Source of the DNA: a virus
DNA: 40,875 nt
IMG/VR virus record: IMGVR_UViG_3300006638_000009
Coordinates: 1-40,875 of that record
Strand: one strand, 5' to 3'
The notes under the pieces are model-generated. The model was given only the letters and a program-made list of their open reading frames with translations, ran no database searches and was not told the origin of the DNA. Positions 4,995 to 21,766 of this stretch are shown here, piece after piece. A program made the translations under genes and the position numbers. Each line of letters begins with the position of its first letter. The first letter of the stretch is position 1.

Positions 4995-5810
4995 ATGAAA
5001 ACCACCACTTTTCTAGCCATAGGATTCCTTGCTTTCCCAGCATTTGCCAGTGCCGCTACGTTTAATACATCGCTTTATTACGGCATACAGGATAAGCCTG
5101 ACGTAATCGCGCTCCAAGAGTTTCTAACTACTCAAGGAGACTTTACAGGTCAAGCAACGGGTAACTTCTACTCCCTCACACTCGCCGCAGTTAAGGCATT
5201 CCAAGTACAAAACGGTATCCAGCCAGTATCAGGTTACTTCGGTGTTCTCTCAAGAGGAGTAGCTAATACCCTTCTCGCTCCTGTCGCTCCGATAGAGGAA
5301 ACTGGAACTACGACTACTGTAATCACGCCACCTCCAACACCAGTTCAGCAACCGATTCCAGTAACTATAATTGGGAATACACCTGTGAATAACACGCCTG
5401 TAGTGCAGACCCCCGTGGTACAATCACCTGTAATGAACGAACCAGTTACACCAGTTCTCGGAGCAACACAAGCTCCCGCGTGGAAGATAAATGTTACCCA
5501 GGACACTAACACCGTACCAGGCGGAGTACAGCCACGATTTACGGTGAATGTATATGACGCTAATGGTGTCTATACCAAACAAGCGGTTACGGTCACAACG
5601 GACGACCCAGACCTTCCTCCATCATTCATTATCAACGAACCTCAGAACGCTACTCTCGACAACCCTAATGCAGTCCAGTGGTTCTGTGTAGGGAATTACG
5701 ATGGATTCCCAGGTCAAGGTTGTAAGAGCACAGCGATTCCAACACCAGGAACCTATAACTTCACCTTCACGGTAGATACGGTGAGTGTCACAAAGCAAGT
5801 CACTATCTAG
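4995..5810 (+). CDS. Secreted peptidoglycan-binding protein of Parcubacteria type
   Basis: The 271-residue protein starts with a clear signal peptide (MKTTTFLAIGFLAFPAFASA). Residues ~24-92 form a peptidoglycan-binding domain of the PG_binding_1 type, with LYYG, VIALQEFL, GNFYSLTLAAVKAFQ and GYFGVLSRGVAN. This wording is characteristic of Parcubacteria surface proteins. A Pro/Val/Thr linker follows (~95-150), then a beta-rich C-terminal domain. It is the first gene of the plus-strand cassette and has its own promoter. The stop codon is embedded in the CTAGTGCCACTAG element. It may modify the envelope of the infected cell or act in adsorption, lysis or superinfection exclusion; it was probably acquired from a host. 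Confidence 0.85.
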   Translation: MKTTTFLAIGFLAFPAFASAATFNTSLYYGIQDKPDVIALQEFLTTQGDFTGQATGNFYSLTLAAVKAFQVQNGIQPVSGYFGVLSRGVANTLLAPVAPIEETGTTTTVITPPPTPVQQPIPVTIIGNTPVNNTPVVQTPVVQSPVMNEPVTPVLGATQAPAWKINVTQDTNTVPGGVQPRFTVNVYDANGVYTKQAVTVTTDDPDLPPSFIINEPQNATLDNPNAVQWFCVGNYDGFPGQGCKSTAIPTPGTYNFTFTVDTVSVTKQVTI

Positions 5811-5844
5811 TGCCACTAGCGTGAAGTGAGTGGGCTAGTAATAT
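5807..5844 (+). promoter_or_regulatory. Late-type promoter: CTAGTGCCACTAG, 19 bases, TAATAT
   Basis: The 13-base near-palindrome (5807-5819) is followed after exactly 19 bases by TAATAT (5839-5844), then eight bases to ATG. The same spacing occurs at three other loci (see 9975, 19106 and 21729). The element overlaps the preceding stop codon. A 12-base palindrome, GCCATATATGGC (5846-5857), covers the start codon. Confidence 0.65.
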
Positions 5845-5852
5845 AGCCATAT

Positions 5853-6044
5853 ATGGCACTATCAGACACAGTAAAGGGGTGGGGAAAGGAACTTGGTGCG
5901 ACTATCAAGGCTAACTCATCGTTTCCTAAAGCCGCGAAGCGAAAGAAGGAACTCTCAAAGAAAATAGGAGTTAGTAAGAAGATGGTGAATCGTGATGAGG
6001 AGGGACGACGTACTCCTGACGGTGACAAGAACAGCAACGATTAA
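5853..6044 (+). CDS. Small basic protein with KKELSKKI motif
   Basis: A 63-residue, strongly Lys/Arg-rich product. The central AAKRKKELSKKIGVSKKM belongs to a motif shared by at least five other small proteins in this window. It starts a run of three basic proteins on the plus strand and has its own late-type promoter. Basic composition suggests DNA or capsid-interior binding; that is inference. No known family is recognised. Confidence 0.8.
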   Translation: MALSDTVKGWGKELGATIKANSSFPKAAKRKKELSKKIGVSKKMVNRDEEGRRTPDGDKNSND

Positions 6045-6046
6045 AT

Positions 6047-6358
6047 ATGGCTAGTGCGAAAGGATACAAAGCTAGAGATGCAGTAAGCCATCGCAAGACA
6101 AACCTCGCGCATCTGATGCGACGGTTTAAGTCTGGGAAGATGACGTATCGTGGCAAAGGAAAGCTACGAGGAAGTGGCCACGCAGCTGGGAGAGATTGGG
6201 GAGCAAAGAAAGGCATTGACCCTAACTCGCAAGTGAAACGATACAGTAAGAACTCTCCGAGCTTTGATGAAGGTGTGTGGCAATACAAAGCGTCTACAGC
6301 AGGTGCAGCTAAAAAGGCAGACTCGGCCAAGAAGAAACTCGCAAGTAAAATAGCATGA
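6047..6358 (+). CDS. Basic protein ending in a KKKLASKI motif
   Basis: A 103-residue Lys/Gly-rich protein without hydrophobic segments. The middle (KSGKMTYRGKGKLRGSGHAAGRDWGAKKG) is disordered and basic; the C-terminus SAKKKLASKI is the shared motif. It begins two bases after the previous stop and ends in an ATGA overlap with the next gene, so all three are one translational unit. A DNA-condensing or minor capsid role is possible but unproven. Confidence 0.8.
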   Translation: MASAKGYKARDAVSHRKTNLAHLMRRFKSGKMTYRGKGKLRGSGHAAGRDWGAKKGIDPNSQVKRYSKNSPSFDEGVWQYKASTAGAAKKADSAKKKLASKIA

Positions 6359-6501
6359 GTAGAATCCCTACAATTAAGATAGACGCTAAGAAGGAACAGA
6401 AACGGCTTTTAGATAAGAAGCGCGAGTTAGCTAAAAGGATGAAAGACCCCAAGATACAAGAACGTATGAAACAGAGGCACGAAGAATGGGGTGAACAATA
6501 G
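6355..6501 (+). CDS. 48-residue basic helical protein
   Basis: The frame starts MSRIPTIKIDAKKEQKRLL and continues DKKRELAKRMKDPKIQERMK. It is almost entirely charged and predicted to form one long helix. RELAKRM resembles the shared KKELAGKI motif. The ATGA overlap with the previous stop fixes the start. Function unknown. Confidence 0.7.
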   Translation: MSRIPTIKIDAKKEQKRLLDKKRELAKRMKDPKIQERMKQRHEEWGEQ

Positions 6502-6503
6502 GG

Positions 6504-6532
6504 TTGCAATTTAGACGTTTCTATGGTAGATT
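6504..6532 (+). promoter_or_regulatory. Sigma70-like leaderless promoter
   Basis: TTGCAA (6504-6509), 17 bases, TAGATT (6527-6532), then six bases to ATG. The -10 sequence TAGATTAG is the same as in the promoter at 4981. The expected transcription start coincides with the start codon. Confidence 0.55.
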
Positions 6533-6538
6533 AGGGGT

Positions 6539-6664
6539 ATGAAAAATCCTTTTATCTTCTGGCTATTCGCAGGACTAGGATACGGCTTGACCCGTAGTAT
6601 TTTGAGGAAGAGACGGCAACGCGCTCTGCAAACTAGAGCCAATTTGACCCAAAAGACCGCCTGA
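6539..6664 (+). CDS. 41-residue membrane microprotein, antisense to transglycosylase 3' end
   Basis: It reads MKNPFIFWLFAGLGYGLTRS followed by a basic tail (ILRKRRQRAL). One hydrophobic segment with positive-inside charges suggests a small inner-membrane protein. It has a good upstream promoter and begins where the transcript should start. The last 90 bases overlap the 3' end of the minus-strand transglycosylase, so the two transcripts are convergent. A holin-like or regulatory peptide is possible. Confidence 0.5.
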   Translation: MKNPFIFWLFAGLGYGLTRSILRKRRQRALQTRANLTQKTA

Positions 6665-7222
6665 CGATGCTGAAGGGGGCGTTTGTGCTATGGGTTGCGT
6701 AGTGGGCTGTGGAGGCGTGTTTTGAGCCGCAGGAGTCGCTGTAGGGGATTGAGACTGACTAGGGTCTGTGGCTATATCTTGCGTAAAGAACTTCTTTGCA
6801 TAACTATTGACCGTATTTGCATACGCTGGGACGTTGAACTTTACTCCGTATTGCTTGTTCACTCCTATAGATGGAGAGCCGTCTGAAAACTTGCCCGTGT
6901 AAGCATTTTCATCACCAGAGTTCCATATAGAGGCTATTTGCTTTGCGTTCATTCCCTTGTCTAATAAATCACTCACCTTTTTCATTGTTACAGTCGTCTC
7001 ATTGTCTGGCGTTAAAGGAGCGTTAGCATCTCCTAGATATTCTTTTGCGTATGCTTTCCATGTAGCAGGTTCAAACTGAAAGATAGATTTCATCTCTCCC
7101 GTCTTCCCCGCTGATGGATTATTTATGTTTGGTGCTCCACCATTTTCTGCATAACCAATGGCTTTAGTAATAGCTTTAACTGCCGCGTCCTTTTCTTGGG
7201 GCGTTAAGTTAAGTCCTGCCAT
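6575..7222 (-). CDS. Virion-associated lytic transglycosylase
   Basis: A 215-residue product. Residues ~10-140 resemble a lysozyme-like transglycosylase: AIGYAENGG with likely catalytic Glu26, then GEMKSIFQFEPATWKAY, where the GxxQ/F strand normally follows, and NVPAYANTVNSYAKKF at the domain end. Residues ~145-215 are a Pro/Gln/Thr-rich tail. There is no signal peptide, and the gene lies at the end of the virion operon behind the internal virion protein. It is therefore probably carried in the particle to open the cell wall during DNA entry, not a lysis enzyme. Confidence 0.75.
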   Translation of the reverse strand: MAGLNLTPQEKDAAVKAITKAIGYAENGGAPNINNPSAGKTGEMKSIFQFEPATWKAYAKEYLGDANAPLTPDNETTVTMKKVSDLLDKGMNAKQIASIWNSGDENAYTGKFSDGSPSIGVNKQYGVKFNVPAYANTVNSYAKKFFTQDIATDPSQSQSPTATPAAQNTPPQPTTQPIAQTPPSASSGGLLGQIGSSLQSALPSLPQNTTGQAVS

Positions 7223-7225
7223 AAA

Positions 7226-9052
7226 TTAGAGAGCAGCAGCGGCTGCTCCACTTCCAAACAATGATTCGGCTGCGCCAGCGGCTGCGCCAGTAGCGGCTCC
7301 GCTAACGGCCTCACCTGCTCCACTTACGGCGGAACCGACTACTCCTGCCACCGCACCAAGAACTGCCTTACCCAGATTTGATGCCGCACTTGATGGAGAC
7401 ATTGAACCCGTATTGAACGCATCACCTTGACCCGTGGCTGCGACTCCTGCGGCTGGCCCAGAACCAACAGTATTAGAACCATATCCAGCGTTCATTGCAC
7501 TTTGCGCCTGTGAAAGACGCGTATTAGCCATGTTCTGCAAGTCACCCAAGAATGAGTTGAGGTCATTAGCTGAGAACTTACTGAAGTCGAATGAGTTAAG
7601 TGCTGAAGTAACATCGGTAGGATTAGCACCCGATTGACTTCCGAGAACCTGTATCGCATAGGAGCGAATATCATTGACTGCTGCGTTTAGAGTTGCTACT
7701 TGTGCTGGGTACAACTGTGCGTTCACATTCTCTATTGCTGTATTGACCAACGGAGATGTTGCTGGATTCTGACCAGTCTGTTGAATGAACGTAACCAGTT
7801 TCTGAGCGATTGGCTGCATAGTCTGAATAGCGTTTGAAAGCTCCTGAGCAACTCCCTGATAGGTTGCTCCTTGAGTAAGATTCTGCTGAGTTATCGCATT
7901 GACCGCGCTTGGATTATAGGTTCCGCCAGATGAACTACTGAGTAGAGAAGTGAGTGCTTGCGTTCCAGGTACGCCAAACGCGGAGAGTCCTGAAGCAGCA
8001 GTTGCGTCAGCAATACTTGCGCCGTTCTTTATAAGTTGAGCTGCCTGTTGAACAGCGGTATTAAGTTGCGGATTCCCTCCTGCTGGGCTAACTACCGCAC
8101 CAGTTTGAGGATTCGTTAGTTGTCCGAATTGTGTTACAGGAGCAGCGGTGGTTGCACTTGTATTTAATGATGAGGCCGCATTATTCAGAAGTCCACCAGC
8201 ATTATTTTGTGCAGTTGCCTCTGCGCCAAGAGCTGTTGCCGCTACACCACGTTGGTCAGCATATTTAGATGCTTCAGCTTGCATGAGTGCTCCTTGTACG
8301 TCAGCCGTCCGATTTATAAGACCCTCTTGACCTTGTTGGAACATATTGCTCCAACCTTGACCGTTTGATGCCGCTAGAGCCGCATTACGCTGTTGCTCTG
8401 CGGTGACTGCGTTGAGGTTCGCCTGAAGCTCGGCAGGAGACATCTGTGTTTGTGCTCCGATTTGTTGTGCAGTTTGATTCTCTGTCGCCGCTTGATTTTG
8501 TATGCTCCCCGCCGCACTTGCTGCAGCTCCAAGGAGTCCTGAGAACGTGGTATCTTGACCGTTTGAAAATGTCGTACCTGCTGCTGGGGCTGATTGAGTT
8601 GTTTGTGCGGGAGTCGTTTGAGTATTGGATTGAGTATTCGTTGTGGTATTCGCTTGGTTTGCGGGGTCATTAGGTTGGACTGGTTTAGCACCTATAGACT
8701 TACCGTAATCAGTTAAGAATCCAGTCGTCGGGTCGTACGCGGGGGTATTCTGAGGAGTGTTGACGAACGGGGCCGCAATGGTGGATTGCGGCGGAGCTTT
8801 TGCTATCTGACTAGAGGCAAGAGTTGTTGAAGGCCCAGAGATGTTCGTAGTGGGTGATACTGGCTTCACACCCATAGGGGCTGTGGCGACCCCGTTAATC
8901 GTCCCTGCTGTAGGTAGTTTTGTGACCGTGGACGTAGCTAAAGGAGAGACACTTGAGGACGCAGGAGCTTGGCTCGCATTTACAGGCTGATATGTGAGCG
9001 AACTGTAGTTCGTCGTTGGTGTGGGAAGTTGCCCTAAAAGATTTATAGCCAT
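7226..9052 (-). CDS. Large Ala/Gln/Thr-rich internal virion (ejection-type) protein
   Basis: A 608-residue low-complexity protein. Residues 1-170 are Pro/Thr/Ser-rich and disordered. The middle is Ala/Gln/Asn-rich and helical (MSPAELQANLNAVTAEQQRN), and the C-terminal ~60 residues are Ala/Gly/Val-rich and hydrophobic (LGAVAGVVGSAVSGAGEAV), able to insert into membranes. This composition and the place between the tail adaptor and virion transglycosylase match podovirus ejection proteins. It is not a recognised sequence family, so the role comes from context. Gene spacing on both sides is two to three bases. Confidence 0.75.
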   Translation of the reverse strand: MAINLLGQLPTPTTNYSSLTYQPVNASQAPASSSVSPLATSTVTKLPTAGTINGVATAPMGVKPVSPTTNISGPSTTLASSQIAKAPPQSTIAAPFVNTPQNTPAYDPTTGFLTDYGKSIGAKPVQPNDPANQANTTTNTQSNTQTTPAQTTQSAPAAGTTFSNGQDTTFSGLLGAAASAAGSIQNQAATENQTAQQIGAQTQMSPAELQANLNAVTAEQQRNAALAASNGQGWSNMFQQGQEGLINRTADVQGALMQAEASKYADQRGVAATALGAEATAQNNAGGLLNNAASSLNTSATTAAPVTQFGQLTNPQTGAVVSPAGGNPQLNTAVQQAAQLIKNGASIADATAASGLSAFGVPGTQALTSLLSSSSGGTYNPSAVNAITQQNLTQGATYQGVAQELSNAIQTMQPIAQKLVTFIQQTGQNPATSPLVNTAIENVNAQLYPAQVATLNAAVNDIRSYAIQVLGSQSGANPTDVTSALNSFDFSKFSANDLNSFLGDLQNMANTRLSQAQSAMNAGYGSNTVGSGPAAGVAATGQGDAFNTGSMSPSSAASNLGKAVLGAVAGVVGSAVSGAGEAVSGAATGAAAGAAESLFGSGAAAAAL

Positions 9053-9054
9053 AA

Positions 9055-9966
9055 TTATGGAACGTAAGTTATATTTTGCTGGAACAAGTTTGGTGAAACT
9101 ACAGCAGTATTCTGCGGTGTCAATCCCACACTTGAAGTCTTTGCCCCGAACTCCGCATCAAGCATCTTGTATCCCTCATCGTAGAGAGACTTGAAGTACG
9201 ATGCTTTGTCCTTGTCTGGATTTATAGAATTGTTATACACATACATCGCTCGATAAAGAGGAAGGTCTTGGAAGTCTTCTGGGAGGATTGGTACTTCTCC
9301 GATTGTGTATGACGCTCCCGATACATTGGTGAGTCCCTGATACGGATTATCAAGGACGAGCGTTGTTGAGTTGGTCACAGACGCTATCTGATACCACTCA
9401 TTGTCCCCAGAGGTCGTATTGCTCGCGGTAATGGGTATGTTGAGCCACATACCCGCCATATTGGTTGTCCACGATGTCCCTGAGCCAGTGACCGTAGTGG
9501 CTGCGGTATTAACGGACAAAGTACCTGTCGTATAGTCGGTAACGGACAAGTCCTTTATGCGTCTTTTATAGTTAATCGTGATTGCATCGCCGTTCTCTGC
9601 TGGTGCTGGCCAGAGAAGAAGCTGACTATTCCAAATGTAGTAGAACTGAGGGAAGTTGTTGACGAAGGGAATGACATTGAGAGCGTCATATTGCTTTCTT
9701 GTAGCGACTTCCTGTGGTTGCCACAATACACTTCCGATAAGCACGGTGGAGTTCACCACTTGTTTATTATTGAAAGGAAGTTGGTATCCAGCCTGACTTG
9801 CTACTGTTCCCCCTGGAACGGTATATGAGGCCTCATTGAAGAAGAACGTACCGACGAGATAACGCAAAGCATCGTTGACTAAGTGGAGTCCGAGCGTTGC
9901 GTTCGCAGTCGCGGTGTTATTAGTTAGATTTGTGAAGTCGTTTTGGTATGAAAGAGTTGTCCTCAT
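9055..9966 (-). CDS. Head-to-tail adaptor protein (gp4/gp11-like)
   Basis: A 303-residue protein. The helical N-terminus (ATLGLHLVNDALRYLVGTFFF) and the helical C-terminus (LPLYRAMYVYNNS... FKSLYDEGYKMLDAEF) match the helical core of podoviral adaptor or tail tubular A proteins. Between them, residues ~145-215 form an inserted beta domain (TTVTGSGTSWTTNMAGMWLNI, then STTLVLDNPYQG), an insertion common in such adaptors. It is probably the ring joining portal to nozzle. It has its own late-type promoter and ends two bases before the internal virion gene. Confidence 0.75.
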   Translation of the reverse strand: MRTTLSYQNDFTNLTNNTATANATLGLHLVNDALRYLVGTFFFNEASYTVPGGTVASQAGYQLPFNNKQVVNSTVLIGSVLWQPQEVATRKQYDALNVIPFVNNFPQFYYIWNSQLLLWPAPAENGDAITINYKRRIKDLSVTDYTTGTLSVNTAATTVTGSGTSWTTNMAGMWLNIPITASNTTSGDNEWYQIASVTNSTTLVLDNPYQGLTNVSGASYTIGEVPILPEDFQDLPLYRAMYVYNNSINPDKDKASYFKSLYDEGYKMLDAEFGAKTSSVGLTPQNTAVVSPNLFQQNITYVP

Positions 9967-9974
9967 TTGAGTAT

Positions 9975-10012
9975 ATTTTAGGGTTTAGGTAGGGAATATC
10001 TAGTGGCACTAG
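9975..10012 (-). promoter_or_regulatory. Late-type promoter: CTAGTGCCACTAG, 19 bases, TAAAAT
   Basis: Read on the minus strand, CTAGTGCCACTAG (10012-10000) is followed by exactly 19 bases and TAAAAT (9980-9975), then eight bases to the adaptor ATG. Spacing to both box and start codon matches the promoter at 5807. The site lies in the 73-base gap after the collar fibre gene. Confidence 0.65.
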
Positions 10013-10039
10013 GTCTTGCTAAGTATTTAGGCGACATAT

Positions 10040-10777
10040 TTAATATTTAATTATAAAGGCGAAAGCTAGAACAGGCTGTATGGTGTTGTGCGGGCTATTG
10101 GAGCCATCACTCGCGATGCTCTGAGGACTCGTACTAACGCCTCCGGTTGTTGGGCCGACACCTGAGCTTGCACCTGCACCTGTCGGAACACTGAGGGGAA
10201 GATTTAGAACGTGTGTATGCGCGGCCAATTCAGCCTCAGTAAGCACGTGAGTTTCCTCTCCCTCCCAATCGCCTACGTTGTATTGAGTGAGAGTGTTCCC
10301 TCCCGTTGGTCTAGTTCCAGAGCCAGAAGCCCCCCCTCCTAGTCCTGAATTGGTTGTCGCGCCAACTGGGACACGTCCTGACGTATACGGCACATCAAAA
10401 TGTGTTCCATCAACTGCGCCGAAAGACGTTCCGATAACCGCAAACAAGTCGGGGTAGGTCGCTCGTGCGTAGCTATTGCCATCGCAAAGAAGATACCCTG
10501 TTGGTATGGAAGTAAAAGAACCATACATAAGGATTGTGCCTGTAGGAATGCTCGCAGGTAGGGTGATTGAAAGGTTCGGGGAACCCGTCCCTGGCGTAAT
10601 AGTCAGTGGAGACGACGCAGTAAGCTGACTGGTGAGGTCGTTGTAATCAACCTTCAGCGTGTCTGTTCCAGTGTGTGAATGCACAGGAACTTTAGGAACG
10701 TCGTATTGAGTACCTAATCTATTGTAGACCTTTGTTGCCGCGTCTGTGGCTATCTTTTGTACGTCGTTGGGTGTCAT
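10040..10777 (-). CDS. Short tail fibre with phage tail-collar domain
   Basis: A 245-residue protein. Residues ~90-150 match the phage tail collar domain: PTGYLLCDGNSYARATYPDLFAVIG and GTHFDVPYTSGRVPVG. The C-terminus has HTHVLN and HNTIQPVLAFAFIIKY, the usual metal-binding and closing strands of collar fibres. The N-terminus (residues 1-50) contains HSHTGTDTLKVDYNDL, probably the attachment part. Its ATG overlaps the nozzle stop as ATGA, so the two are coupled. It is a likely receptor-binding or tail-needle component. Confidence 0.85.
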   Translation of the reverse strand: MTPNDVQKIATDAATKVYNRLGTQYDVPKVPVHSHTGTDTLKVDYNDLTSQLTASSPLTITPGTGSPNLSITLPASIPTGTILMYGSFTSIPTGYLLCDGNSYARATYPDLFAVIGTSFGAVDGTHFDVPYTSGRVPVGATTNSGLGGGASGSGTRPTGGNTLTQYNVGDWEGEETHVLTEAELAAHTHVLNLPLSVPTGAGASSGVGPTTGGVSTSPQSIASDGSNSPHNTIQPVLAFAFIIKY

Positions 10778-12642
10778 CGAAGTCGAAGCTCTCTTAGACG
10801 CACATAGCTTGGTGAACTCGCTGTCGAGCTAAGGAGAGCGCGTATCTGTATCCATTGAGATTTTTGGAAGTTCACCTGTACGACGCCTGAGATTCCTGAG
10901 CCTACATCCGCTGAAGTAAAGACCCCTGTTGGATGTTGCGTGTCGGTAATAGTAGTGAAAGACTGTGAGAAGTTTTGTCGGTATTGGAGTGTCACGGATT
11001 CTCCCGCAACCATTGGAACAGTGAGTTTGTATTCGACTTGAGAGTTTGTCGTGGGATTAAGAAAAGTCCCAATGGGAATCATATCTGAATCCACATAGGC
11101 TTGAGCGTTTGAGTAGGGGGTTGGAGACGTTGGTACATAATCTGAACCATACGCAGAAACTCCATCGTACCAACCAGCGACTATTGAAACTTGACCGAAG
11201 GCTACTCCTGAAGCTGCCGCACTCGTAACGAACTGTGCCAGTTCTGAAACAAACCCTGCGTAAGTCGCATAGGACAACTGGTTGGTGAGCCTAATAGCGT
11301 TTGTATCCGTTGAAACTGCCCATATACCACCGTAATTAGGGATAGCAGCACTAGTTGCCGAATTGAGGCACGAAACGCTGAAATAGAGCTGATTTCGGCT
11401 GTATACAGCCCCTCCCCATTGGTAGTAGGGTTCCACAGTCCCCGAAAGGTGGTCTGGTATCTTTTTATAGAGCGTCACGTTCGCTCCGTTGGTTTGATAG
11501 ATACGTCCTCTATTCCCTGCGAAGATATAGGCATTTGAATTGACCGCAACGATTCTAGTGATTCCAGCTTCGGGTATTTCTATTGGAGTACCTCCTGAAC
11601 CTACCCCTGCGTTAAGAGGGTCTCTACTCCATGAATACATGATGTTTCGCGTGCCACCGATAAGTAGATTTGTTCCTAACTGCTCTATGCAGTTAGCTAA
11701 ATCAAAACTAGGGAAAATGAGAGCTGTATTAGTGAATGTGTATGTTGCACCACTAATCGGGTCAAACGTAGTGAGCTGTTCGAGTTGTCCTATTCCTGAA
11801 CCGTTACAGAACCATAGAATGCCATCTGAATCTGTGAAGGTTCTTGAGGAGGAACTAGTCGCGTTAGTTGACTTCCAACCATACTGCCACGCTGAAATAG
11901 AACTCGTGCCGTTATTAGCGCGGTAATCTATTTTCGCATCTCCGGCTCTGAAAACGAGAATGTATCCATTGAAGAATGCTATCCCATTTGCTTTCGGTGG
12001 CGAGGCATTGACTGTCGAATTACCTAAGTATACCCAGTTAGGTGTCGTTGGTATGAATATCCACGCCAACCCATTCGTATCAACCGCGAGCACATTCCCT
12101 TGTTGGAGAAACGAGGTCTGAATACCCAACGCCCCAAACGTAGTATTATTCGAGGAAATCATCTGTACTGTTGAAGCGATATTTACTGTAGTGAACGTGC
12201 CCGTACCGTCGCTAGTGACGTTTATAGCCGCGCTCACGGTTCCTGCTGCGTCCACGCCCGAACCGACTTTGAATGTCGTTGCCGTGACATCTCGCACCCA
12301 ATAAGTGTTCCCCGATGTTATACCAGCCGTACCAGTACTCACTGTAATAACTATCGCAGTTCCTGCCTTTATAGTTGTCCCTGAGTAAGTAAAGACATCT
12401 GTTGCGGCTACTGCTGTGTATGCAACGCCCGACACGGCAGTTTGGTTAGCCTGAACAGTCTGATTGAGTACGCTCGCCTCCCCTGGGATAGAAATAACAT
12501 TGACATTTCGCATATCGGAAAGTCCTGTTTGCTGAATATTACCCACTTGTGTTTGTAGGTTCGTTCCGTAAGGAGAATCGGAAATACCAGACTCCCAGCC
12601 GTCAATGATTAAGTCGTTTGTCGAAGGGTCAAGCCTATACAT
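10774..12642 (-). CDS. Beta-propeller tail nozzle-like protein
   Basis: A 622-residue product; the start MYRLDPSTNDLIIDGWESGI at 12642 overlaps the preceding gene by eight bases and is preferred to an upstream ATG. Repeated strands with turns such as NGYILVFRAGDAKIDY, DGILWFCNGSGIGQLEQL, GTNLLIGGTRNIMYSW and NAYIFAGNRGRIYQTNG resemble propeller blades. Podovirus nozzles (P22 gp10, T7 gp12) are propellers of about this size. Residues ~100-155 look like an inserted beta domain. The neighbours, collar fibre, adaptor and motif proteins, fit a tail-hub position. The family assignment is structural inference. Confidence 0.7.
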   Translation of the reverse strand: MYRLDPSTNDLIIDGWESGISDSPYGTNLQTQVGNIQQTGLSDMRNVNVISIPGEASVLNQTVQANQTAVSGVAYTAVAATDVFTYSGTTIKAGTAIVITVSTGTAGITSGNTYWVRDVTATTFKVGSGVDAAGTVSAAINVTSDGTGTFTTVNIASTVQMISSNNTTFGALGIQTSFLQQGNVLAVDTNGLAWIFIPTTPNWVYLGNSTVNASPPKANGIAFFNGYILVFRAGDAKIDYRANNGTSSISAWQYGWKSTNATSSSSRTFTDSDGILWFCNGSGIGQLEQLTTFDPISGATYTFTNTALIFPSFDLANCIEQLGTNLLIGGTRNIMYSWSRDPLNAGVGSGGTPIEIPEAGITRIVAVNSNAYIFAGNRGRIYQTNGANVTLYKKIPDHLSGTVEPYYQWGGAVYSRNQLYFSVSCLNSATSAAIPNYGGIWAVSTDTNAIRLTNQLSYATYAGFVSELAQFVTSAAASGVAFGQVSIVAGWYDGVSAYGSDYVPTSPTPYSNAQAYVDSDMIPIGTFLNPTTNSQVEYKLTVPMVAGESVTLQYRQNFSQSFTTITDTQHPTGVFTSADVGSGISGVVQVNFQKSQWIQIRALLSSTASSPSYVRLRELRLR

Positions 12643-13287: not shown

Positions 13288-13290
13288 AGG

Positions 13291-13833: not shown

Positions 13834-13836
13834 ATA

Positions 13837-14553
13837 TTATTTCTTGAGTTTAGTTTCAGTAATAGCTCTGAGAAGCGTCTTGTATCGGTCTGCGATTCGG
13901 AGTTCTCGATTTGCAAAGGAGGCGTTCTGTTTCTCGACATACTTCTCGCGTTCGGTGATTGAAACATCCCGACCCTTGAGAACTGCTTTGTAGCGTGCTG
14001 CCTCTGCTTGTGCTTTCTGTGTCTCGTCTAAGGACTCTTGGAGTATTTCTGTTAGGGCAGACATCCGTTCGCCAATTTGTTTCTCCTGTAGTTGGATGGC
14101 AAACTCACGATTGTTGAGAATGAGAGAATACTTTGTTGCATCCTGCTCACGCTCTGATACTGCGTCTAATCTTTCCTGTAATAACTCCTTTGTTTCCTCG
14201 ACATCCGTCTCCTTTATCGCTACCAATTCTTCACGCTTCAAAAGAGCACTATGCTTATCTTGCACTTCTTTTTCGCGTTCTTCTAGTGGCACAAGGGCAG
14301 ACTTACGACGGCTCTCAAGGGCGTCTACTTCTATGGTGAGAGCGTTAATCCTATCCTTCCATAATTGCACCTCATCAGCCCCCTGTTTACCCACCTCTGA
14401 GAGACGATTGACGAGTTGATTATCAAGGTCTTGTATCTCCTTACGTTTGTCCTTTAAGACCTTGTCAAGCTGAAGAGACCGAGATAGCTCGGTGGCTTCT
14501 TGCAGTTTCCTCAGTTGGTTTCCCTCCTGCGGTTTAAGTAACCGCATTGCCAT
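13837..14553 (-). CDS. Long coiled-coil protein
   Basis: A 238-residue protein that is almost entirely charged heptads (LSRSLQLDKVLKDKRKEIQDL, then REKEVQDKHSALLKREELVA and REKYVEKQNASFANREL). No hydrophobic segment or other domain is visible. It lies between decoration-like and motif proteins in the virion operon. It could be a fibre stalk, assembly chaperone or tape-like ruler. A GTGCCACTAG copy lies inside the gene but lacks a -10 box at the expected distance. Confidence 0.75.
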   Translation of the reverse strand: MAMRLLKPQEGNQLRKLQEATELSRSLQLDKVLKDKRKEIQDLDNQLVNRLSEVGKQGADEVQLWKDRINALTIEVDALESRRKSALVPLEEREKEVQDKHSALLKREELVAIKETDVEETKELLQERLDAVSEREQDATKYSLILNNREFAIQLQEKQIGERMSALTEILQESLDETQKAQAEAARYKAVLKGRDVSITEREKYVEKQNASFANRELRIADRYKTLLRAITETKLKK

Positions 14554-14555
14554 AG

Positions 14556-15101: not shown

Positions 15102-15116
15102 GTGGTGAAATTAGTT

Positions 15117-15188
15117 ATTATACTCCCACTATAACACCTAGCACCCATTGTCCAGCACTTATCAACCACCACAGTGAATAAGTGCTGG
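15117..15188 (-). promoter_or_regulatory. Hairpin and TATAAT box between virion genes
   Basis: In the 96-base gap a perfect 11-bp stem, CCAGCACTTAT (15152-15162) with ATAAGTGCTGG (15178-15188), encloses a 15-base loop. Further along the minus strand is TATAAT (15122-15117), 15 bases before the next ATG. No U-run follows the stem, so it is not a classical terminator; it may be a processing or partial-termination site that sets the level of downstream genes. No clear -35 box. Confidence 0.5.
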
Positions 15189-15197
15189 GAATAGAAA

Positions 15198-15938: not shown

Positions 15939-15960
15939 TTTAAGTTAATTACGTTGATAA

Positions 15961-16497
15961 TTAGGAACCGACATAGCTCACGCCCACTGCACACGTTGCG
16001 GTGTTCGTTGCGTTGAACCAGAAGTCCAATGGCGTATTAGCACCCCAAATGGCCGATGTAATCGAGCCAGTCTGAAGTGTGCTAGATGCCTGAAGGAAGT
16101 ACACAGAGCTTGTGGCGACTGTGCCTGCGTTAACAACAAGGTTTGCCGACGGGATAGTAGCTGAGTTAGCTGCTGTCGTCGTTCCTATCGTGAGCTGGAG
16201 TGCCGCAAGACCTGAACCCGTGTAGGCGGTCTTACTTGTTCCAACAGTTTCGCAACCTATCTGATACCCCGTGATATACCTATCGTTTCCATCTGTGTTA
16301 AGGATTGATGTTGAGGTTCCGTTTGCCCCTGCGTTAGCAAGGTTAACTGAAACCATCGCCACCTTTGCATCACTGAAGGTTGACCCTGCAGGAGATGCGC
16401 CGAAACTTTGACTTGGACGAAGTGCCGCTACAAGCAATATAACTGCTGCCAATATGAGCAAACCAAGAATCAATTTTGTTGAGTTTATAGTAGCCAT
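15961..16497 (-). CDS. Structural-region protein with N-terminal membrane segment
   Basis: A 178-residue product. The start MATINSTKLILGLLILAAVILLVAAL at 16497 lies one base after the previous stop, so longer upstream starts are rejected. The single N-terminal hydrophobic helix is followed by a beta-rich extracytoplasmic-type domain (YITGYQIGC, then TSVYFLQASSTLQTGSI and TATCAVGVSYVG) with two cysteines that could form a disulphide. Such a signal-anchored protein among capsid genes is unusual. It may be displayed on the cell or ride in the virion. Confidence 0.75.
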   Translation of the reverse strand: MATINSTKLILGLLILAAVILLVAALRPSQSFGASPAGSTFSDAKVAMVSVNLANAGANGTSTSILNTDGNDRYITGYQIGCETVGTSKTAYTGSGLAALQLTIGTTTAANSATIPSANLVVNAGTVATSSVYFLQASSTLQTGSITSAIWGANTPLDFWFNATNTATCAVGVSYVGS

Positions 16498-16498
16498 A

Positions 16499-16798
16499 TT
16501 AGACAAGAATATACTTATAAGTCGTTGATGTTTGCGTCTCAGAACTCGATGAGGTAACTGTGAACGTGCCTGGCGTGATTGTGACAACACCCGCCGCACT
16601 TGTTGCTGATGATGTTGGTGTGATGTTTGAGACATACCAACGCCCCGCATATGCAGAGGTGTTCATAATCAATACCTGTGTCAAGTTTTGAATACCATCA
16701 TCGGTAACTGTGTCCGTGTTTCCAGTCGAAGCCCACACACGCGATACTGGCGGTGGGTAGGCTAGTTCTGGAGAGAACAATTGAGGATTGTATGCCAT
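16499..16798 (-). CDS. Small beta-rich virion-operon protein
   Basis: A 99-residue protein beginning MAYNPQLFSPELAYPPPVSRV, then a Thr/Ser/Val-rich region (ATSAAGVVTITPGTFTVTSSS). No hydrophobic helix or cysteine. It directly follows the major capsid gene (18-base gap) and precedes the anchored protein. A capsid-stabilising or head-fibre protein is plausible, but no family is recognised. Confidence 0.7.
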   Translation of the reverse strand: MAYNPQLFSPELAYPPPVSRVWASTGNTDTVTDDGIQNLTQVLIMNTSAYAGRWYVSNITPTSSATSAAGVVTITPGTFTVTSSSSETQTSTTYKYILV

Positions 16799-16816
16799 AA
16801 CGTAAAAGTTAGGCGG

Positions 16817-17851
16817 TTAAATCCCCGTGATGCCTGTCAAGACGCCTTGACGACGAGGGTTAGCACTGATGAGGTTTCCTGCGACGACGATAAACGAGTT
16901 CCAAGCGAGCGCGTTTGTAGCGTGAATGAAACCAGTCCAGAAGAAGCCGAAGTTCTCATCGGCACTGTACTGTGAACCGACGAACAGTTTTGAGCCGACC
17001 TTTACCTTCTCGCCTGAATAGCCTCCCTTATCAAGACCTCCGAGCATATCGAGGGTATAGAAGTTGAGGTAATCCATATTGAGCATGAAGAGGGAGCCAG
17101 ACGTACACTTACGGTCTGGGACAATCGGCATACCTGCCCACATAATCGCGCGATACCCTGTGTATCCCTTGAAGTTCGAGGCTACGTTAACACCTACCTC
17201 CTTTGCGATGCGCTCCTGCGGTTGCAGAAGAGACTCGTACAAAGCCCAAGTAGAGTAGTCCGTAAAGGCCTCGTCCGGCTGGACTTCACCATCAGCGATG
17301 TTGTTGAAGAGAGTACGCATCTTGAAAAGAGAAAGCGTACCGCTTGAAGCAGTTACCGTTGACTGAAGAGTTGAGTAAGTGGAACGTGATGCACCTCCGA
17401 TAGAACCAGTCGCGGACACAATGTTCCCAAGACCGAGGAAGTCGGTAGCGAGAGACTGTGAGCCGTAGAACTGAGTTCCAATGGAGTCTGCGAGGTCTTG
17501 AGCACGCGAAAGCATTTCGACTTCCGTGAGGTCAAGAACCTTACGCATTGTGTTGTTTGCGGCTACGTCAGTAGTTGCAAGTGCGACGTTGCTTTCATTG
17601 AAAGCTGGGTTGTACTTGAGCAACTGGCGGGTCGCGGTGAGAGATGTAGGAAGAGTCTGGAAGCCGATGAACGACGTCGTTGCAGTACCCTTTTGATACT
17701 TGAACGGGAAGTCCTGCGTTGCCGCACGGAACTTCTTTGTGTCCTTCGTCATAATGCGAGTCGTGAACTCATTGGCGCGAAGCACCGTGTCCACAACTTC
17801 AGGCATTATGTCTTCCATCGTCAAGACATCTACTTCTGTAGAGAATGCCAT
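16817..17851 (-). CDS. Major capsid protein
   Basis: A 344-residue protein with features of HK97-fold major capsid proteins. It has a helical N-arm (DVLTMEDIMPEVVDTVLRANEF), a long spine-helix-like stretch near residues 115-140 (LTEVEMLSRAQDLADSIGTQFY), and a late P-domain/A-domain pattern (DEAFTDYSTWALYESLL, then GYRAIMWAGMPIVPDRKC and GSLFMLNMDYLNFYTLDML). The length is usual for the family. It follows the scaffold gene directly (19-base gap), the classic order. It may be a client of the phage chaperonin, an inference. Confidence 0.85.
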   Translation of the reverse strand: MAFSTEVDVLTMEDIMPEVVDTVLRANEFTTRIMTKDTKKFRAATQDFPFKYQKGTATTSFIGFQTLPTSLTATRQLLKYNPAFNESNVALATTDVAANNTMRKVLDLTEVEMLSRAQDLADSIGTQFYGSQSLATDFLGLGNIVSATGSIGGASRSTYSTLQSTVTASSGTLSLFKMRTLFNNIADGEVQPDEAFTDYSTWALYESLLQPQERIAKEVGVNVASNFKGYTGYRAIMWAGMPIVPDRKCTSGSLFMLNMDYLNFYTLDMLGGLDKGGYSGEKVKVGSKLFVGSQYSADENFGFFWTGFIHATNALAWNSFIVVAGNLISANPRRQGVLTGITGI

Positions 17852-17870
17852 ATACGATTAGAATTAATGT

Positions 17871-18686
17871 TTATTTTGGTAATTTGCTCTCCCAGCGTCC
17901 CCGTTGTCCTGGCCTCCAATCTGCGTCGGAAGTGGAAACGGAACCGCCTTCTGAGCGTGAGCCACTGAGAGCTGCTACAGCGTTTCTCTGTGAACGATTA
18001 GGTTTACTTGTCTCAGCTTGGAGTTGATATATCTCGTAGGCTTGGTCAAGCGGGAGCAAGTATTCTTCGGGGATTTTCCCAGACTTGTCTTTGGGTGAAT
18101 ACTTCTCGACAATATCAAGTAGTGCTACTTGTTCGTCATCGGTGAACTCTTTGCCAGAAACTAGTCCGAGTTCCTCGAAGGCGGAGTCCATGCTTGCAAC
18201 ACGATTGTTAATAAGCTGGGCGTCCTCTTGCTCTCTTTGGCTTATGCGTTCATAGGCACGTTCTGATGCTCGCTCTTCAATGACATTGAGACGCTTGAGT
18301 TCGTTCTGATAGAGCTTTTCAGCCATGTCAGTGTCTCCGAATGTGGTGGTGTAGAACTTTTTCAGGTCTTCATCTTCATCCACTTGGATAACTGGTTCAG
18401 GACGACTCTCGCGTTCGGCTTCGTATGCTCTAGCTGCTTTTTCAGCCTCTATCGCCCGTTTAGCCATTGTGAGGAAGCGTGACTTGGGAACTTTCTCCTC
18501 TTCGGGTTCAGGTGTACTTACTTCCGGTTCGGATACTGTCTCGACAGGCGTTTCGGGGACGGACTCCGAGGGTGCAACCTCTTCGCTGGGCGCGACTACT
18601 TCGTCAATCGGTCTATCAAGTTGTTCACTCGTCAATTTGCTACTCGCTTTCTCGAACCCTCTACCTGTGATTTGGATATTATCCAT
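17871..18686 (-). CDS. Capsid scaffolding protein
   Basis: A 271-residue, highly charged and largely helical protein. Residues ~25-75 are an acidic Pro/Val/Glu-rich disordered region; ~80-165 form long charged helices (MAKRAIEAEKAARAYEAERES, then LNVIEERASERAYERISQREQ). A short basic, Arg/Gly-rich C-terminus (WRPGQRGRWESKLPK) would contact the capsid shell, as in other scaffolds. The place between portal and capsid genes is decisive. Confidence 0.8.
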   Translation of the reverse strand: MDNIQITGRGFEKASSKLTSEQLDRPIDEVVAPSEEVAPSESVPETPVETVSEPEVSTPEPEEEKVPKSRFLTMAKRAIEAEKAARAYEAERESRPEPVIQVDEDEDLKKFYTTTFGDTDMAEKLYQNELKRLNVIEERASERAYERISQREQEDAQLINNRVASMDSAFEELGLVSGKEFTDDEQVALLDIVEKYSPKDKSGKIPEEYLLPLDQAYEIYQLQAETSKPNRSQRNAVAALSGSRSEGGSVSTSDADWRPGQRGRWESKLPK

Positions 18687-18795
18687 AGTTTACGGGGGCT
18701 GTTTACTGGTGAGACCCTAGAGACACCTGATTATTTTTAACTACGGAGTGTTTTTATCCTTGCGGAAGGGCGACCCTCTAGAAAACCCAAATGCT

Positions 18796-18954
18796 CTACT
18801 TCTTATCTGCTCCCTCTTCTTTAAGGAACTTCTCGCCACTACCTTTCTTACTTTTAATCTTCTTGGCGAACGTGAGTTTCTTATCGCGGAGTTCCTTACT
18901 CTCTTCTTTCGTCTCGTCCTTTATTTCTTTCTTTTCACTTGTGTTTTTTGCCAT
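18796..18954 (-). CDS. 52-residue Lys/Glu-rich protein with FAKKI motif
   Basis: The frame starts MAKNTSEKKEIKDETKEESK and continues ELRDKKLTFAKKIKSKKG. One long charged helix is likely. The RDKKLTFAKKI part is a divergent version of the motif in the other small basic proteins. It begins one base after the stop of the 47-residue gene. The 109 bases between it and the scaffold gene contain short inverted repeats but no clear gene. Function unknown. Confidence 0.7.
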   Translation of the reverse strand: MAKNTSEKKEIKDETKEESKELRDKKLTFAKKIKSKKGSGEKFLKEEGADKK

Positions 18955-18955
18955 A

Positions 18956-19099
18956 TTAAACTGGTGCTACGGGTGTTGATTCTGTAACAGTCGGGTCTGC
19001 GACAACTGGTTCAACTGCGGGAACCACAGCAACCTGTTCGCTAAAACTCTGCGTCGTGCCATCCGCGAAAGTAAGCGTGATTGATGTTATGGGGTTCAT
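18956..19099 (-). CDS. 47-residue Val/Pro/Thr-rich protein
   Basis: It reads MNPITSITLTFADGTTQSFS, then a Val/Pro/Ala tail. The first 20 residues look like two beta strands; the remainder is disordered. A late-type promoter lies immediately upstream, with its TACTAT box six bases before the ATG, so the transcript should be leaderless. It is the first gene of a short unit running into the scaffold and capsid genes. Function unknown. Confidence 0.65.
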   Translation of the reverse strand: MNPITSITLTFADGTTQSFSEQVAVVPAVEPVVADPTVTESTPVAPV

Positions 19100-19105
19100 G
19101 TTTTT

Positions 19106-19140
19106 ATAGTAATTTATTTATCTGTGTCTGCTAGTGGCAC
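19106..19140 (-). promoter_or_regulatory. Late-type promoter: GTGCCACTAG, 19 bases, TACTAT
   Basis: On the minus strand GTGCCACTAG (19140-19131) is followed by exactly 19 bases and TACTAT (19111-19106), then six bases to ATG. Only the right ten bases of the 13-base palindrome are kept here. The promoter lies upstream of the scaffold and capsid genes. Confidence 0.6.
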
Positions 19141-19165
19141 AAGCGTATGGGTTAGATGATTCCAT
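19118..19165 (-). CDS. 15-residue frame with portal-like start (possible remnant)
   Basis: The frame reads MESSNPYACATSRHR and stops. Its first eight residues equal the portal N-terminus, and twelve bases (aaccCATACGCT on the coding strand) are identical. It overlaps the end of the 42-residue gene in another frame and contains the GTGCCACTAG element. It may be a recombination scar rather than a gene. Confidence 0.3.
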   Translation of the reverse strand: MESSNPYACATSRHR

Positions 19166-19280
19166 TTAGATTTGGTTCGGTTTGCTTAGGGAGAGGTTCT
19201 ACACTATCGGCTATCGCCTTCCATAAGTCTTGTACGTTTTTCAACGTAATCTTTCCTTGATATGGATTCGAGGATTCCAC
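19152..19280 (-). CDS. 42-residue protein with portal-like N-terminus, GTG start
   Basis: The frame begins GTG two bases after the preceding stop and reads (M)ESSNPYQGKITLKNVQDLWKA, ending in EPNLNGII. The first residues echo the portal start MESSNPYAQG. A helical middle is likely. Reuse of the same start in portal and small protein suggests a shared interaction motif or a duplicated translation start. No family is recognised. Confidence 0.6.
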   Translation of the reverse strand: MESSNPYQGKITLKNVQDLWKAIADSVEPLPKQTEPNLNGII

Positions 19281-19282
19281 GG

Positions 19283-19537
19283 TTAAAGAGGTGAGTTCTT
19301 TTCTCTGTCGGGTCGCTCACTCCTAAAGAAGTGGTCGCCGTCTGCTTTTCCTTTCTGGGGATATGCGGGTTTACCAATCTTCCCCGCCAATTCTTTTTTC
19401 TTTGCGGAGGCTTTGGCAGAACTTCTATCGTTTCTAAAACCTTCTGGGTTTGCTCGCTTAACATCCTTGAAGTGTTCCGCAACAGCCCCCTTACCGTAAG
19501 AAATCCCTCTCGGCCCTTCTTTATCGTTATGGTTCAT
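19283..19537 (-). CDS. Small basic protein with AKKKELAGKIGK motif
   Basis: An 84-residue, Lys/Arg/Gly-rich hydrophilic protein. Residues ~42-58 contain SAKASAKKKELAGKIGKP, nearly identical to the motif of the small protein before the portal gene. A strong GGAGG lies just upstream of the ATG. A GTGCCACTAG copy (19573-19582) lies upstream, but no good -10 box is found 19 bases on. It follows the portal gene by nine bases. A packaged or scaffold-linked protein is plausible. Confidence 0.8.
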   Translation of the reverse strand: MNHNDKEGPRGISYGKGAVAEHFKDVKRANPEGFRNDRSSAKASAKKKELAGKIGKPAYPQKGKADGDHFFRSERPDREKNSPL

Positions 19538-19546
19538 ATTCCTCCA

Positions 19547-21463
19547 TTATTGCCCACCTGGTATAGCTCCGCCTAGTGGCACAGACTGTAGTAATTGCTG
19601 GCTCTGCTGTTCCACTGCTGGTGGGGAAGTCAGAGGTTGTGGTTGCGTCTCTGTTCCTTGTTGCTGTTCCTGTGGTGAGACTGTGCCTTGCTGTGCTCCT
19701 TGAGCCATTGGTGCGCCAAACTGAGGGAACAACACTTGAGGAGGTAACTTACCAGCCGCGACCATCTGCCAAGTAAGAGTCTGCTGTGCGCTCTCCATCG
19801 GGTCTGCGAAGTCTAGGCGACTATAAAGCTCTGGGAGTCCTATTGCCTGTGCGCTCCACAAGTCCATAGCCTCGTTACGTTCAGTGAGTGGGTCTTTGGG
19901 AATGAGCGAACCATCTTTAACCGTTACGTTCGGGTCTACAAGGAAGTCTGTGTTATGCAACTGGATAGCCTCTTGAGCACCATTAAGTCCCATAGCGTTG
20001 AACTCGAATGGTTTATCTCCATACACGAATACGAACTGAATCACGAAGTTATATATCGTGTTAGCCGCTTGTTCGATGTACTCGGTAACACCTCCACCAA
20101 TTCTTGAGGAGTCGGTCTGTTGCACCATAATCTTTCCACGGACACTCTTCTCATCCTGTATGCCTGAAGCTGTGGAGCCTGTGATGCCGAATATACCCTT
20201 GAGTCTTTCTTCAGACTTCTCTTGCTGTTGGAATATATCTCCTGGTAGGGCAGGGGCAGCATCTCGTTTCCAAGCTGTATTAACGTCTCCATTCGGAACC
20301 CACACCGTGCCTCCTTTACGAAGGAAGGTGGCGGCTTCAGCGGCTTGCTCTTTAGTGAACGAAGTACCCGAAGCGAGTGCTCCATTGTTCTGCGAGTCTG
20401 CGTTCTTGTCTATCTGTCGTAGTCTCTTGTTATGCAAATCCTGCATCGAGACGTTCTGCATGATGAGTGAAGTGTCGTCGTGTGGATGCTCGCCTGTGCT
20501 GAATACCGATAGACCAACATAAGGGAACGTTGGCTGATTCCTACCGAACATGTGATTCTTCCCTTGCACTGGTGTTGAAATCTCCTCCTGTGTATTTGGG
20601 TCAATGGTCTTAGTCTCGCCGTCGTAGTTCCAGTTAGGGTTCTTGAACGTACCCACACACTCATCGTCTATGAAATAGAACACATCAGTGCCTTTGTACC
20701 ACCATTCCTCAAGTGTGAGCTTCTTTGTGGCATTGCCCTTTGATAGAGCTTTAATTCTGTCTGCGTGCTTAGGGAACATATCTGAGAGTGTCCCTGCTGA
20801 AATCTTCTTAGGCTCGCCTATCCAATCGCCTGTAAATAAACCTTCTTCATCCCAGTGTCCATCGGGGTCGAGCTTGAGGTTCTTTACGACAAGGACATTG
20901 CATTCAATCTTATGTTGAACGACGTTGTATGAAACCTTCCACACGCCGAGCTTGGACATCACCCATTGTCGCGTTCCACCCTTGAGACGCATACGGAACT
21001 TCGCTTTATCAGCCCAGTCTACGAGGAAGCTCTTTGTGTTCTTAGCAAGCTCAATAGCGGCTGGCGCGTCTCCTGCGGTAACAACAGGGTCAGGGTTCGC
21101 ACGGTTAGCGATAGGGAGGAACGTCTCTACTGCCTCAAAGATAAGGTTGTCTACCGTGTTATGCCCATCGAGGTCTTCGGTAACATCGGTCTTTTGTTTA
21201 CCTAGCCAGTAGTTATAAGACTTCTTCTGGTCAGGCTCTACGTCTCCGAAGTATACGGAGTACGTAGCTTTCCATTGTGCGCGGAGTCTGCGTGCTTCTT
21301 CGGGAGTGTATTTAGATTTATATTCTTCTAATACTTCATCACCATTCCCTCCACCTAATCCATCAGCTTTAACATCAGAGACTTTGTTGTAGTCCTGGGC
21401 AAGAGACTGTGCTTGTTTTACAGCCTGGAATATTCCTTGAGCGTATGGGTTGCTACTTTCCAC
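19547..21463 (-). CDS. Portal protein
   Basis: A 638-residue protein of the size and composition of podovirus portals. After a helical, charged N-terminus (EEARRLRAQWKATYSVYFGDV) come mixed alpha/beta wing regions (WVMSKLGVWKVSYNVVQHKIE), a likely crown/stem region (YIEQAANTIYNFVIQFVFVYG), and a disordered Gln-rich C-terminus. It lies between terminase and scaffold/capsid genes, the usual order. It would form the dodecameric channel for DNA packaging and attach the adaptor. Its N-terminus MESSNPYAQG recurs in two tiny downstream frames. Confidence 0.85.
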   Translation of the reverse strand: MESSNPYAQGIFQAVKQAQSLAQDYNKVSDVKADGLGGGNGDEVLEEYKSKYTPEEARRLRAQWKATYSVYFGDVEPDQKKSYNYWLGKQKTDVTEDLDGHNTVDNLIFEAVETFLPIANRANPDPVVTAGDAPAAIELAKNTKSFLVDWADKAKFRMRLKGGTRQWVMSKLGVWKVSYNVVQHKIECNVLVVKNLKLDPDGHWDEEGLFTGDWIGEPKKISAGTLSDMFPKHADRIKALSKGNATKKLTLEEWWYKGTDVFYFIDDECVGTFKNPNWNYDGETKTIDPNTQEEISTPVQGKNHMFGRNQPTFPYVGLSVFSTGEHPHDDTSLIMQNVSMQDLHNKRLRQIDKNADSQNNGALASGTSFTKEQAAEAATFLRKGGTVWVPNGDVNTAWKRDAAPALPGDIFQQQEKSEERLKGIFGITGSTASGIQDEKSVRGKIMVQQTDSSRIGGGVTEYIEQAANTIYNFVIQFVFVYGDKPFEFNAMGLNGAQEAIQLHNTDFLVDPNVTVKDGSLIPKDPLTERNEAMDLWSAQAIGLPELYSRLDFADPMESAQQTLTWQMVAAGKLPPQVLFPQFGAPMAQGAQQGTVSPQEQQQGTETQPQPLTSPPAVEQQSQQLLQSVPLGGAIPGGQ

Positions 21464-21465
21464 GA

Positions 21466-21705
21466 TTATTTATTGTACTTCTCACTTATCCTCTTCTGTT
21501 GCGCCACTAATTCTTTATGCTGGCGATTACCACCGTCTTTAGGAGAGATTCCATACTTATCACCCTTACTTATCTTCCCCGCTAGTTCCTTCTTCTTTGC
21601 GAAGCTCTTTCGTGCCTCCATCATCGCAGGGCTGTTCGCTCCATGACCTTTCTGAGCTGAGTTGCCCCAACGCTTGTTACTATCAAATCCGTCTTTGTTT
21701 GCCAT
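21466..21705 (-). CDS. Small basic protein with AKKKELAGKISK motif
   Basis: A 79-residue hydrophilic protein: MANKDGFDSNKRWGNSAQKG, then ARKSFAKKKELAGKISKGDK near residues 32-50 and a helical, charged C-terminus. The start at 21705 is preferred to an upstream ATG at 21738, which lies before the mapped promoter's expected start region. It has its own late-type promoter and precedes the portal gene by two bases. Role unknown; co-assembly with portal or DNA is an inference. Confidence 0.8.
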   Translation of the reverse strand: MANKDGFDSNKRWGNSAQKGHGANSPAMMEARKSFAKKKELAGKISKGDKYGISPKDGGNRQHKELVAQQKRISEKYNK

Positions 21706-21728
21706 ATAAATAGTTATGTTATTCCTCA

Positions 21729-21766
21729 ATCGTACCAACCAAACCGCACATCGCTAGTGGCACTAG
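21729..21766 (-). promoter_or_regulatory. Late-type promoter: CTAGTGCCACTAG, 19 bases, TACGAT
   Basis: On the minus strand the palindrome (21766-21754) overlaps the large-terminase stop codon and is followed by exactly 19 bases and TACGAT (21734-21729). Unlike the other copies, a leader of about 20 bases with GAGG separates it from the ATG. It would drive the portal, scaffold and capsid genes independently of terminase. Confidence 0.65.

Follow-up and report, generated by a model that had tools for sequence, protein, structure and literature searches.

A recurrent element at a fixed distance from the -10 box marks probable activator-dependent late promoters in an uncultured phage lineage

The element and its sites in the window

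We analysed a 40,875-base virus record from IMG/VR (IMGVR_UViG_3300006638_000009; the whole of this stretch is referred to as the window) and found that a 10-base element, GTGCCACTAG, recurs at its structural genes, with a TANNNT hexamer following after exactly 19 nucleotides (nt) at five sites, four of them GTGCCACTAG copies and one a near-copy. The GTGCCACTAG-N19-TANNNT sites are very probably promoters, and the late promoters among them probably depend on a phage activator. As an explanation of the whole pattern we favour, with good but not full confidence, a late-promoter class that belongs to this phage lineage and is driven by a phage-encoded activator. This analysis adds three new points: orthologous promoters carry an element that is spelled differently in each genome, their transcripts are likely to be leaderless, and there is a candidate activator. 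All genomes compared are metagenomic assemblies, and some of the relatives are short contigs.

GTGCCACTAG was the most frequent 10-mer of the window, with 6 copies compared to 4 for the runner-up and an expectation of 0.04-0.06 copies (Markov, both strands). The 13-base version CTAGTGCCACTAG was the sole 13-mer with three copies (expected 0.0005). The positions and strands given for the six copies in an initial annotation of this DNA were all correct, as were its count of three full 13-base copies and its exact 19-nt gap at four copies, which lead to TAATAT (5810, plus strand), TAAAAT (10009, minus), TACTAT (19140, minus) and TACGAT (21763, minus). When every 7-mer of the window was tested blind at 12 gaps to TANNNT (about 2e5 tests), CCACTAG-N19 came out on top, with 5 of 7 occurrences followed by TANNNT (p = 1.3e-8, uncorrected). 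The annotation had listed six copies of a late-promoter element and had described a box at four; the copies at 14283 and 19573 are coding sequence and probably not promoters, with no TANNNT at +19, and a fifth site with a box (4684-4693) had been overlooked. Element copies were confined to 4.7-21.8 kb, upstream of or inside structural-gene units, and none was present at 22-40.9 kb. The late operons share the element and the early region lacks it, as in activator-dependent phage late promoters.

Putative late promoter A (21729-21766, minus strand; CTAGTGCCACTAG at 21754-21766, 19-nt spacer, -10 box TACGAT at 21729-21734) follows the large terminase gene (terL) and precedes a gene for 79 amino acids (aa; 21466-21705) and the portal gene. 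Putative late promoter B (19106-19143, minus; CTTGTGCCACTAG, spacer 19, TACTAT at 19106-19111, ATG 6 nt further on) lies after the portal gene and before a 47-aa open reading frame (ORF; 18956-19099), the scaffold gene (17871-18686) and the major capsid gene (16817-17851). Site C (9975-10012, minus; CTAGTGCCACTAG at 10000-10012, spacer 19, TAAAAT at 9975-9980, ATG 8 nt on) stands before a tail adaptor-like gene (9055-9966). Site D (4659-4693, minus; the near-copy GTACCACTAG at 4684-4693, spacer 19, TACAAT at 4659-4664) is located within the gene of a 117-aa helix-turn-helix (HTH) protein, upstream of a 1207-aa gene (970-4593). Promoter E (5807-5844, plus; CTAGTGCCACTAG at 5807-5819, spacer 19, TAATAT at 5839-5844) is followed by the ATG of a 63-aa gene at 5853 and then by a gene for a basic 103-aa protein (6047-6358); it was called from the pattern match by itself.

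An ATG occurred 6-8 nt downstream of the -10 box at 15 of 23 element sites, a spacing that would place the transcription start at the start codon, and the messenger RNAs from these sites are therefore probably leaderless. Of the 177 starts predicted in the clade, just 4 were preceded by a sequence resembling a Shine-Dalgarno motif, and the histogram of TANNNT-to-ATG gaps at predicted starts peaked at 6 and 8. The scarcity of Shine-Dalgarno-like sequences together with these peaks gives independent support for the TANNNT hexamers as real -10 elements. Leaderless translation seems to be general in the window phage and its relatives.

Orthologous sites in related phages

About 100 related contigs were found via terminase and capsid alignments. 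The exact form GTGSCACTAG gave 2 matches only in 45 relative records, which suggested that the element had been lost; alignment of orthologous sites overturned this by revealing diverged spellings. Directly after terL, where the window reads CTAGTGCCACTAG-19-TACGAT, the relatives read GTAGTACCACTAG-19-TATTGT (G008), CTAGTACCACTAC-19-TAGTAT (G012), GTAGTACCACTAC-19-TATTCT (G031), GCCGTACCACTAC-19-TACTAT (G033) and TTGCTACCACTGG-19-TAGACT (G010), all diverged orthologous copies of promoter A. The gap and a diverged element were also present between portal and scaffold (promoter B, in G010, G012, G014, G031 and G033), before the adaptor gene (promoter C, in G010, G014 and G031) and inside the HTH gene (promoter D, in G031, G010 and G014). 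There were two exceptions, the G031 adaptor site, with its TANNNT at a gap of 22, and the copy in the G014 HTH gene, for which no -10 box was found.

The element was recognised in the relatives after the window version had been seen; gap and anagram controls and unbiased counts in G014 and G031 guard against over-reading. RCCACT-N21-TANNNT occurred 16 times in seven pooled relatives (window excluded) compared to a mean of 2.76 at other gaps (standard deviation 1.71, maximum 8). CCACT ranked first of 830 5-mers at the N21 gap, and the best anagram control reached 6. Genome-specific versions of the element include CTAGTGCCACTAG, GTAGTACCACTAC and CTCGTACCACTCC, and the genome's own spelling outnumbered every other 10-mer in both the window and G014 (TCGTACCACT, 6 copies) and was among the commonest in G031 (TAGTACCACTACC, 4 copies vs 0.0018 expected). 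RCCACT and the spacing are invariant and the palindrome is not. The near-palindrome described in the initial annotation is present in three window copies, but it is not the conserved part, and as the recognised unit it was rejected, its left arm being absent in G010 and G014. The occurrence of a phage's own spelling at the same places and with the same spacing suggests a phage-made switch protein that evolves together with its DNA sites.

Alternatively, the motif could be a promoter signal of host type, used by an atypical host and not specific to the phage. The genomes around the one related phage contig found in a genome bin are all small, and little work exists on promoters in uncultured bacteria with small genomes, which leaves room for such a signal. 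Against it, each phage has its own spelling, three phages outside the clade (G023, G053 and G002) show TTGACA-like boxes, and a search across IMG/VR for the full 13-mer followed by N19 and a -10 box returned only five unrelated contigs with one copy each, which we treated as chance. We regard this explanation as very unlikely.

The boxes outside the clade occupy some of the same places. After terL, G053 carries TTGACA-16-TACAAT, G023 carries TTGTCA-17-TATAAT and G002 has TTGACA; before the adaptor gene, G023 reads TTAACA-17-TATAAT. Three of the sites in G029 read TTACCA(T/A/G)TA (gaps 17-19), a weaker match judged by eye. In G027, ATCCCCATAGCA was found three times (0.002 expected), with a gap of 18 to TANNNT (contig L124, positions 5569, 7803 and 14541, plus strand); one copy follows terL and another follows the portal gene. 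In G014, GGGGATACGC-N14-TANNNT was found four times, including the post-terL site and the region upstream of the HTH gene (L114/L115, positions 288, 21328, 25582 and 28822, all minus). We treat both alternative motifs as leads. Blind clustering of 10-mers next to TANNNT in distant relatives, allowing one mismatch, produced low-complexity clusters only, no better than wrong-gap controls. A tentative extension, which we hold doubtful, is that lineages may rewrite the spelling of the late element in concert at all late operons, some swapping in TGGGGATACGC (G014), TATCCCCATAGCA (G027) or a host-type -35, with the positions, the -10 boxes and the leaderless starts kept. The HTH protein, small and with a helix at its C-terminus, would then be a replaceable substitute for sigma region 4, its specificity evolving with its sites, one of which lies in its own linker codons.

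The two GTGCCACTAG copies that lack a -10 box bear on whether the repeats could arise by chance or from coding constraint. The copy at 14283-14292 (minus) lies inside a coding sequence (13837-14553), in codons for V P L E, and was kept in 4 of 4 comparable element-bearing relatives (as CCACT codons) within a conserved VPLEE peptide; it is probably coding sequence and not a promoter, with coding constraint as its possible cause. The copy at 19573-19582 (minus) falls in the last portal codons in the frame VPL. There the portal C-terminus SVPL is conserved and the DNA element is not kept in relatives, and by this comparison the copy is a coding coincidence. Chance or coding constraint is true for the 19573 copy, then, and possibly for the 14283 copy, but the statistics and the independent conservation in relatives refute it for sites A, B, C and D, and as a general account of the element it is extremely unlikely.

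The -35 position and the candidate activator

Where a canonical promoter has a TTGACA-like -35 hexamer, 16-18 nt upstream of the -10 box, the element sites lack one and read CTAGNN or similar. Canonical promoters showed no excess in the late region (23 found vs 24.2 expected). We propose that host RNA polymerase carrying the primary sigma factor would read the -10 box and that the element, 10-13 bp at about -44 to -32, would stand in for the -35 box as the binding site of a phage-encoded activator. The late operons (portal, scaffold/capsid, adaptor/tail and tail gene) would switch on together once the activator is made, and the transcripts would mostly begin at or beside the ATG. The earlier view of the element as a late-promoter signal gains support from the exact 19-nt gap, the orthologous late sites, the ATG spacing, and the TTGACA-like boxes in the outgroups.

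Three of the copies are near-perfect palindromes over the -35 region and some copies lie inside genes without a -10 box, as might be expected if the element were a repressor operator or a stoperator overlapping promoters and keeping the late genes off. The stoperators of mycobacteriophage L5 are likewise 13-bp repeats, many of them near gene ends and oriented with transcription, and they need no fixed gap to a -10 box; in the window phage, by contrast, the gap to the -10 box is a conserved feature. Moreover, the element covers no -35 hexamer (CTAGNN vs TTGACA), so that a repressor would have little to act on; conservation falls on the polymerase-side half and the gap and not on the palindrome, and outgroups have TTGACA-like boxes at the same places. 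A repressor site is an unlikely reading.

The best candidate for the activator is the 117-aa HTH protein (4554-4907, minus strand; Pfam HTH_28, E 1.8e-5, 25.1 bits vs a cut-off of 25). At 1e-3 its homologs were found only in G031 (51%), G010 (35%) and G014 (41%), which are the element-bearing relatives whose records cover the HTH region, and a scan of IMG/VR with the HTH alignment returned the same three only. The four CCACT phages share the recognition helix (helix 3) K[TL]T[IV]R[YH], whereas G027 and G053 have a different one. Within the HTH gene, the copy at 4684-4693 lies in the linker codons, and the element is present at this place in each of the four close homologs. In the AlphaFold model, residues 18-54 form a trihelical HTH and residues 94-115 a C-terminal helix, with a disordered linker between them. 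The protein could supply the missing -35 contact, perhaps held to the polymerase by its C-terminal helix, and we judge the case for its being the activator to be evenly balanced.

The initial annotation had instead pointed to the 63-aa protein encoded beside the 5810 copy (5853-6044, plus strand, weakly HTH_3-like, downstream of promoter E) as a possible binder of the element. Because no relative has a homolog of it, it is unlikely to be the common activator, and the 117-aa protein is the better candidate.

A signal overlapping the -35 position at a rigid gap could also be the -35 element of an alternative sigma factor, encoded by the phage or by the host, in which case one protein would read the whole signal and no separate activator would be needed. 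The 117-aa protein and its G014 homolog faintly resemble sigma region 4 (Sigma70_r4_2, E 0.1 and 0.011, respectively). Profile searches of the PDB and fold searches with the HTH protein gave weak generic matches only, including sigma-E region 4 on -35 DNA (chain 2h27, E 0.14 by profile and 2.3 by Foldseek). However, an ordinary TANNNT serves as the -10 box, PHROGs and Pfam found no sigma-factor gene among the window genes scanned, and the HTH protein has a single HTH and no sigma region 2. That outgroup phages have TTGACA-like boxes in these positions also argues against this explanation, and we consider it unlikely.

Several observations weigh against an activator-driven late-promoter class with the 117-aa protein as its activator. 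The left arm of the palindrome is lost in G010 and G014; G014 lacks the element at site A, where it has another repeated motif; and the 14283 copies have no -10 box in five phages. Remote homologs of the HTH protein occur in G027, G029 and G053, phages without the CCACT element in this form, so that the link between protein and element requires a change of specificity. The AlphaFold model is of moderate confidence (mean predicted local distance difference test score 69.9), and Foldseek returned no match to it at E<=0.001. Two small genes (23589-23819, Zn-ribbon-like, and 26066-26263) are also common to the element-bearing phages and could take part. The latter, on the minus strand, encodes a 65-aa protein that is conserved in G008, G010 and G014 and was not found in element-less relatives.

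In T4 middle promoters, a phage MotA box replaces the -35 beside an ordinary -10 through sigma appropriation by MotA/AsiA; the box, (a/t)(a/t)(a/t)TGCTTtA, is centred at -30 and lies 12 +/- 1 bp from the -10 (PMC2988021). The window sites appear similar in having a phage element in the place of the -35 that a small phage protein is expected to bind. Unlike the MotA box, the window element is GTRCCACTAG (RCCACT[AG]), centred near -38 with a gap of 19, and unlike the MotA double wing, the candidate is HTH_28-like, with a predicted simple trihelical HTH and a C-terminal helix. MotA had no match among the window genes scanned by PHROGs or Pfam. Since box, distance and protein family all differ, the window sites are not a member of the T4 MotA system.

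In the late (C) and middle (Mor) promoters of Mu, the activator site is upstream of or overlaps a poor -35 region (PMC4461284). The window phage resembles Mu in having the putative activator site at or above a poor -35 and a single late-promoter set for morphogenesis genes, and it differs in its rigid gap to the -10 and its genome-specific spelling. No homology to Mu was shown, and the candidate HTH protein and the other small genes scanned had no Pfam match to the Mor/C family. In lambda CII-type class II activation, an activator over the -35 contacts sigma region 4 or alpha, and CII reads TTGCN6TTGC around the -35 hexamer. The proposed activator would likewise bind over the -35 region; however, no -35 hexamer is present at the window sites, and the small HTH protein that we propose is unrelated.

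These sites offer a view of the regulatory code of an uncultured phage family from sequence alone. As the spelling at orthologous promoters varies even between close relatives, they also provide a natural experiment on how an activator and its whole regulon acquire a new specificity in concert, which has long been asked in the study of regulatory evolution. They may in addition be a source of orthogonal promoter-activator pairs.

Genome context and minor features

The window encodes a large terminase (21763-23316), a portal protein (19547-21463), a second tail fibre/adaptor-like gene (10040-10777) beside the one at 9055-9966, and a phage GroEL (24427-25950) with a GroES-like protein (23816-24091). 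The replication region includes a DnaD-like helicase loader and an exonuclease. The structural gene set is like that of short-tailed phages. The sole genome match was a contig in a metagenome bin whose relatives are genomes of 0.4-1.0 Mb, which fits small-genome bacteria as the host without proving Patescibacteria. A literature search found nothing on the promoters of Patescibacteria phages.

The portal start MESSNPYA (21463) also opens two small ORFs that lie between the portal and scaffold genes (about 19155 and 19290, minus), and the element at 19131 lies at the end of the first of these. Directly upstream of the scaffold gene are two tandem TCTAGGGT...CCCGTA-like blocks (18687-18810, minus), which every element-bearing phage has and G023 has in part (relatives: L036 14100-14218, L112 13575-13699, L122 7180-7298, L114 17488-17610, minus). 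The blocks look like a conserved RNA leader; Rfam had no match in the window, the blocks included. TATCCCCA was among the commonest 8-mers of the window, with 9 copies, some of them intergenic (e.g., 4967 and 27481). A 137-nt direct repeat, 96% identical, is located near both ends of the record (1-137 and 40472-40608).

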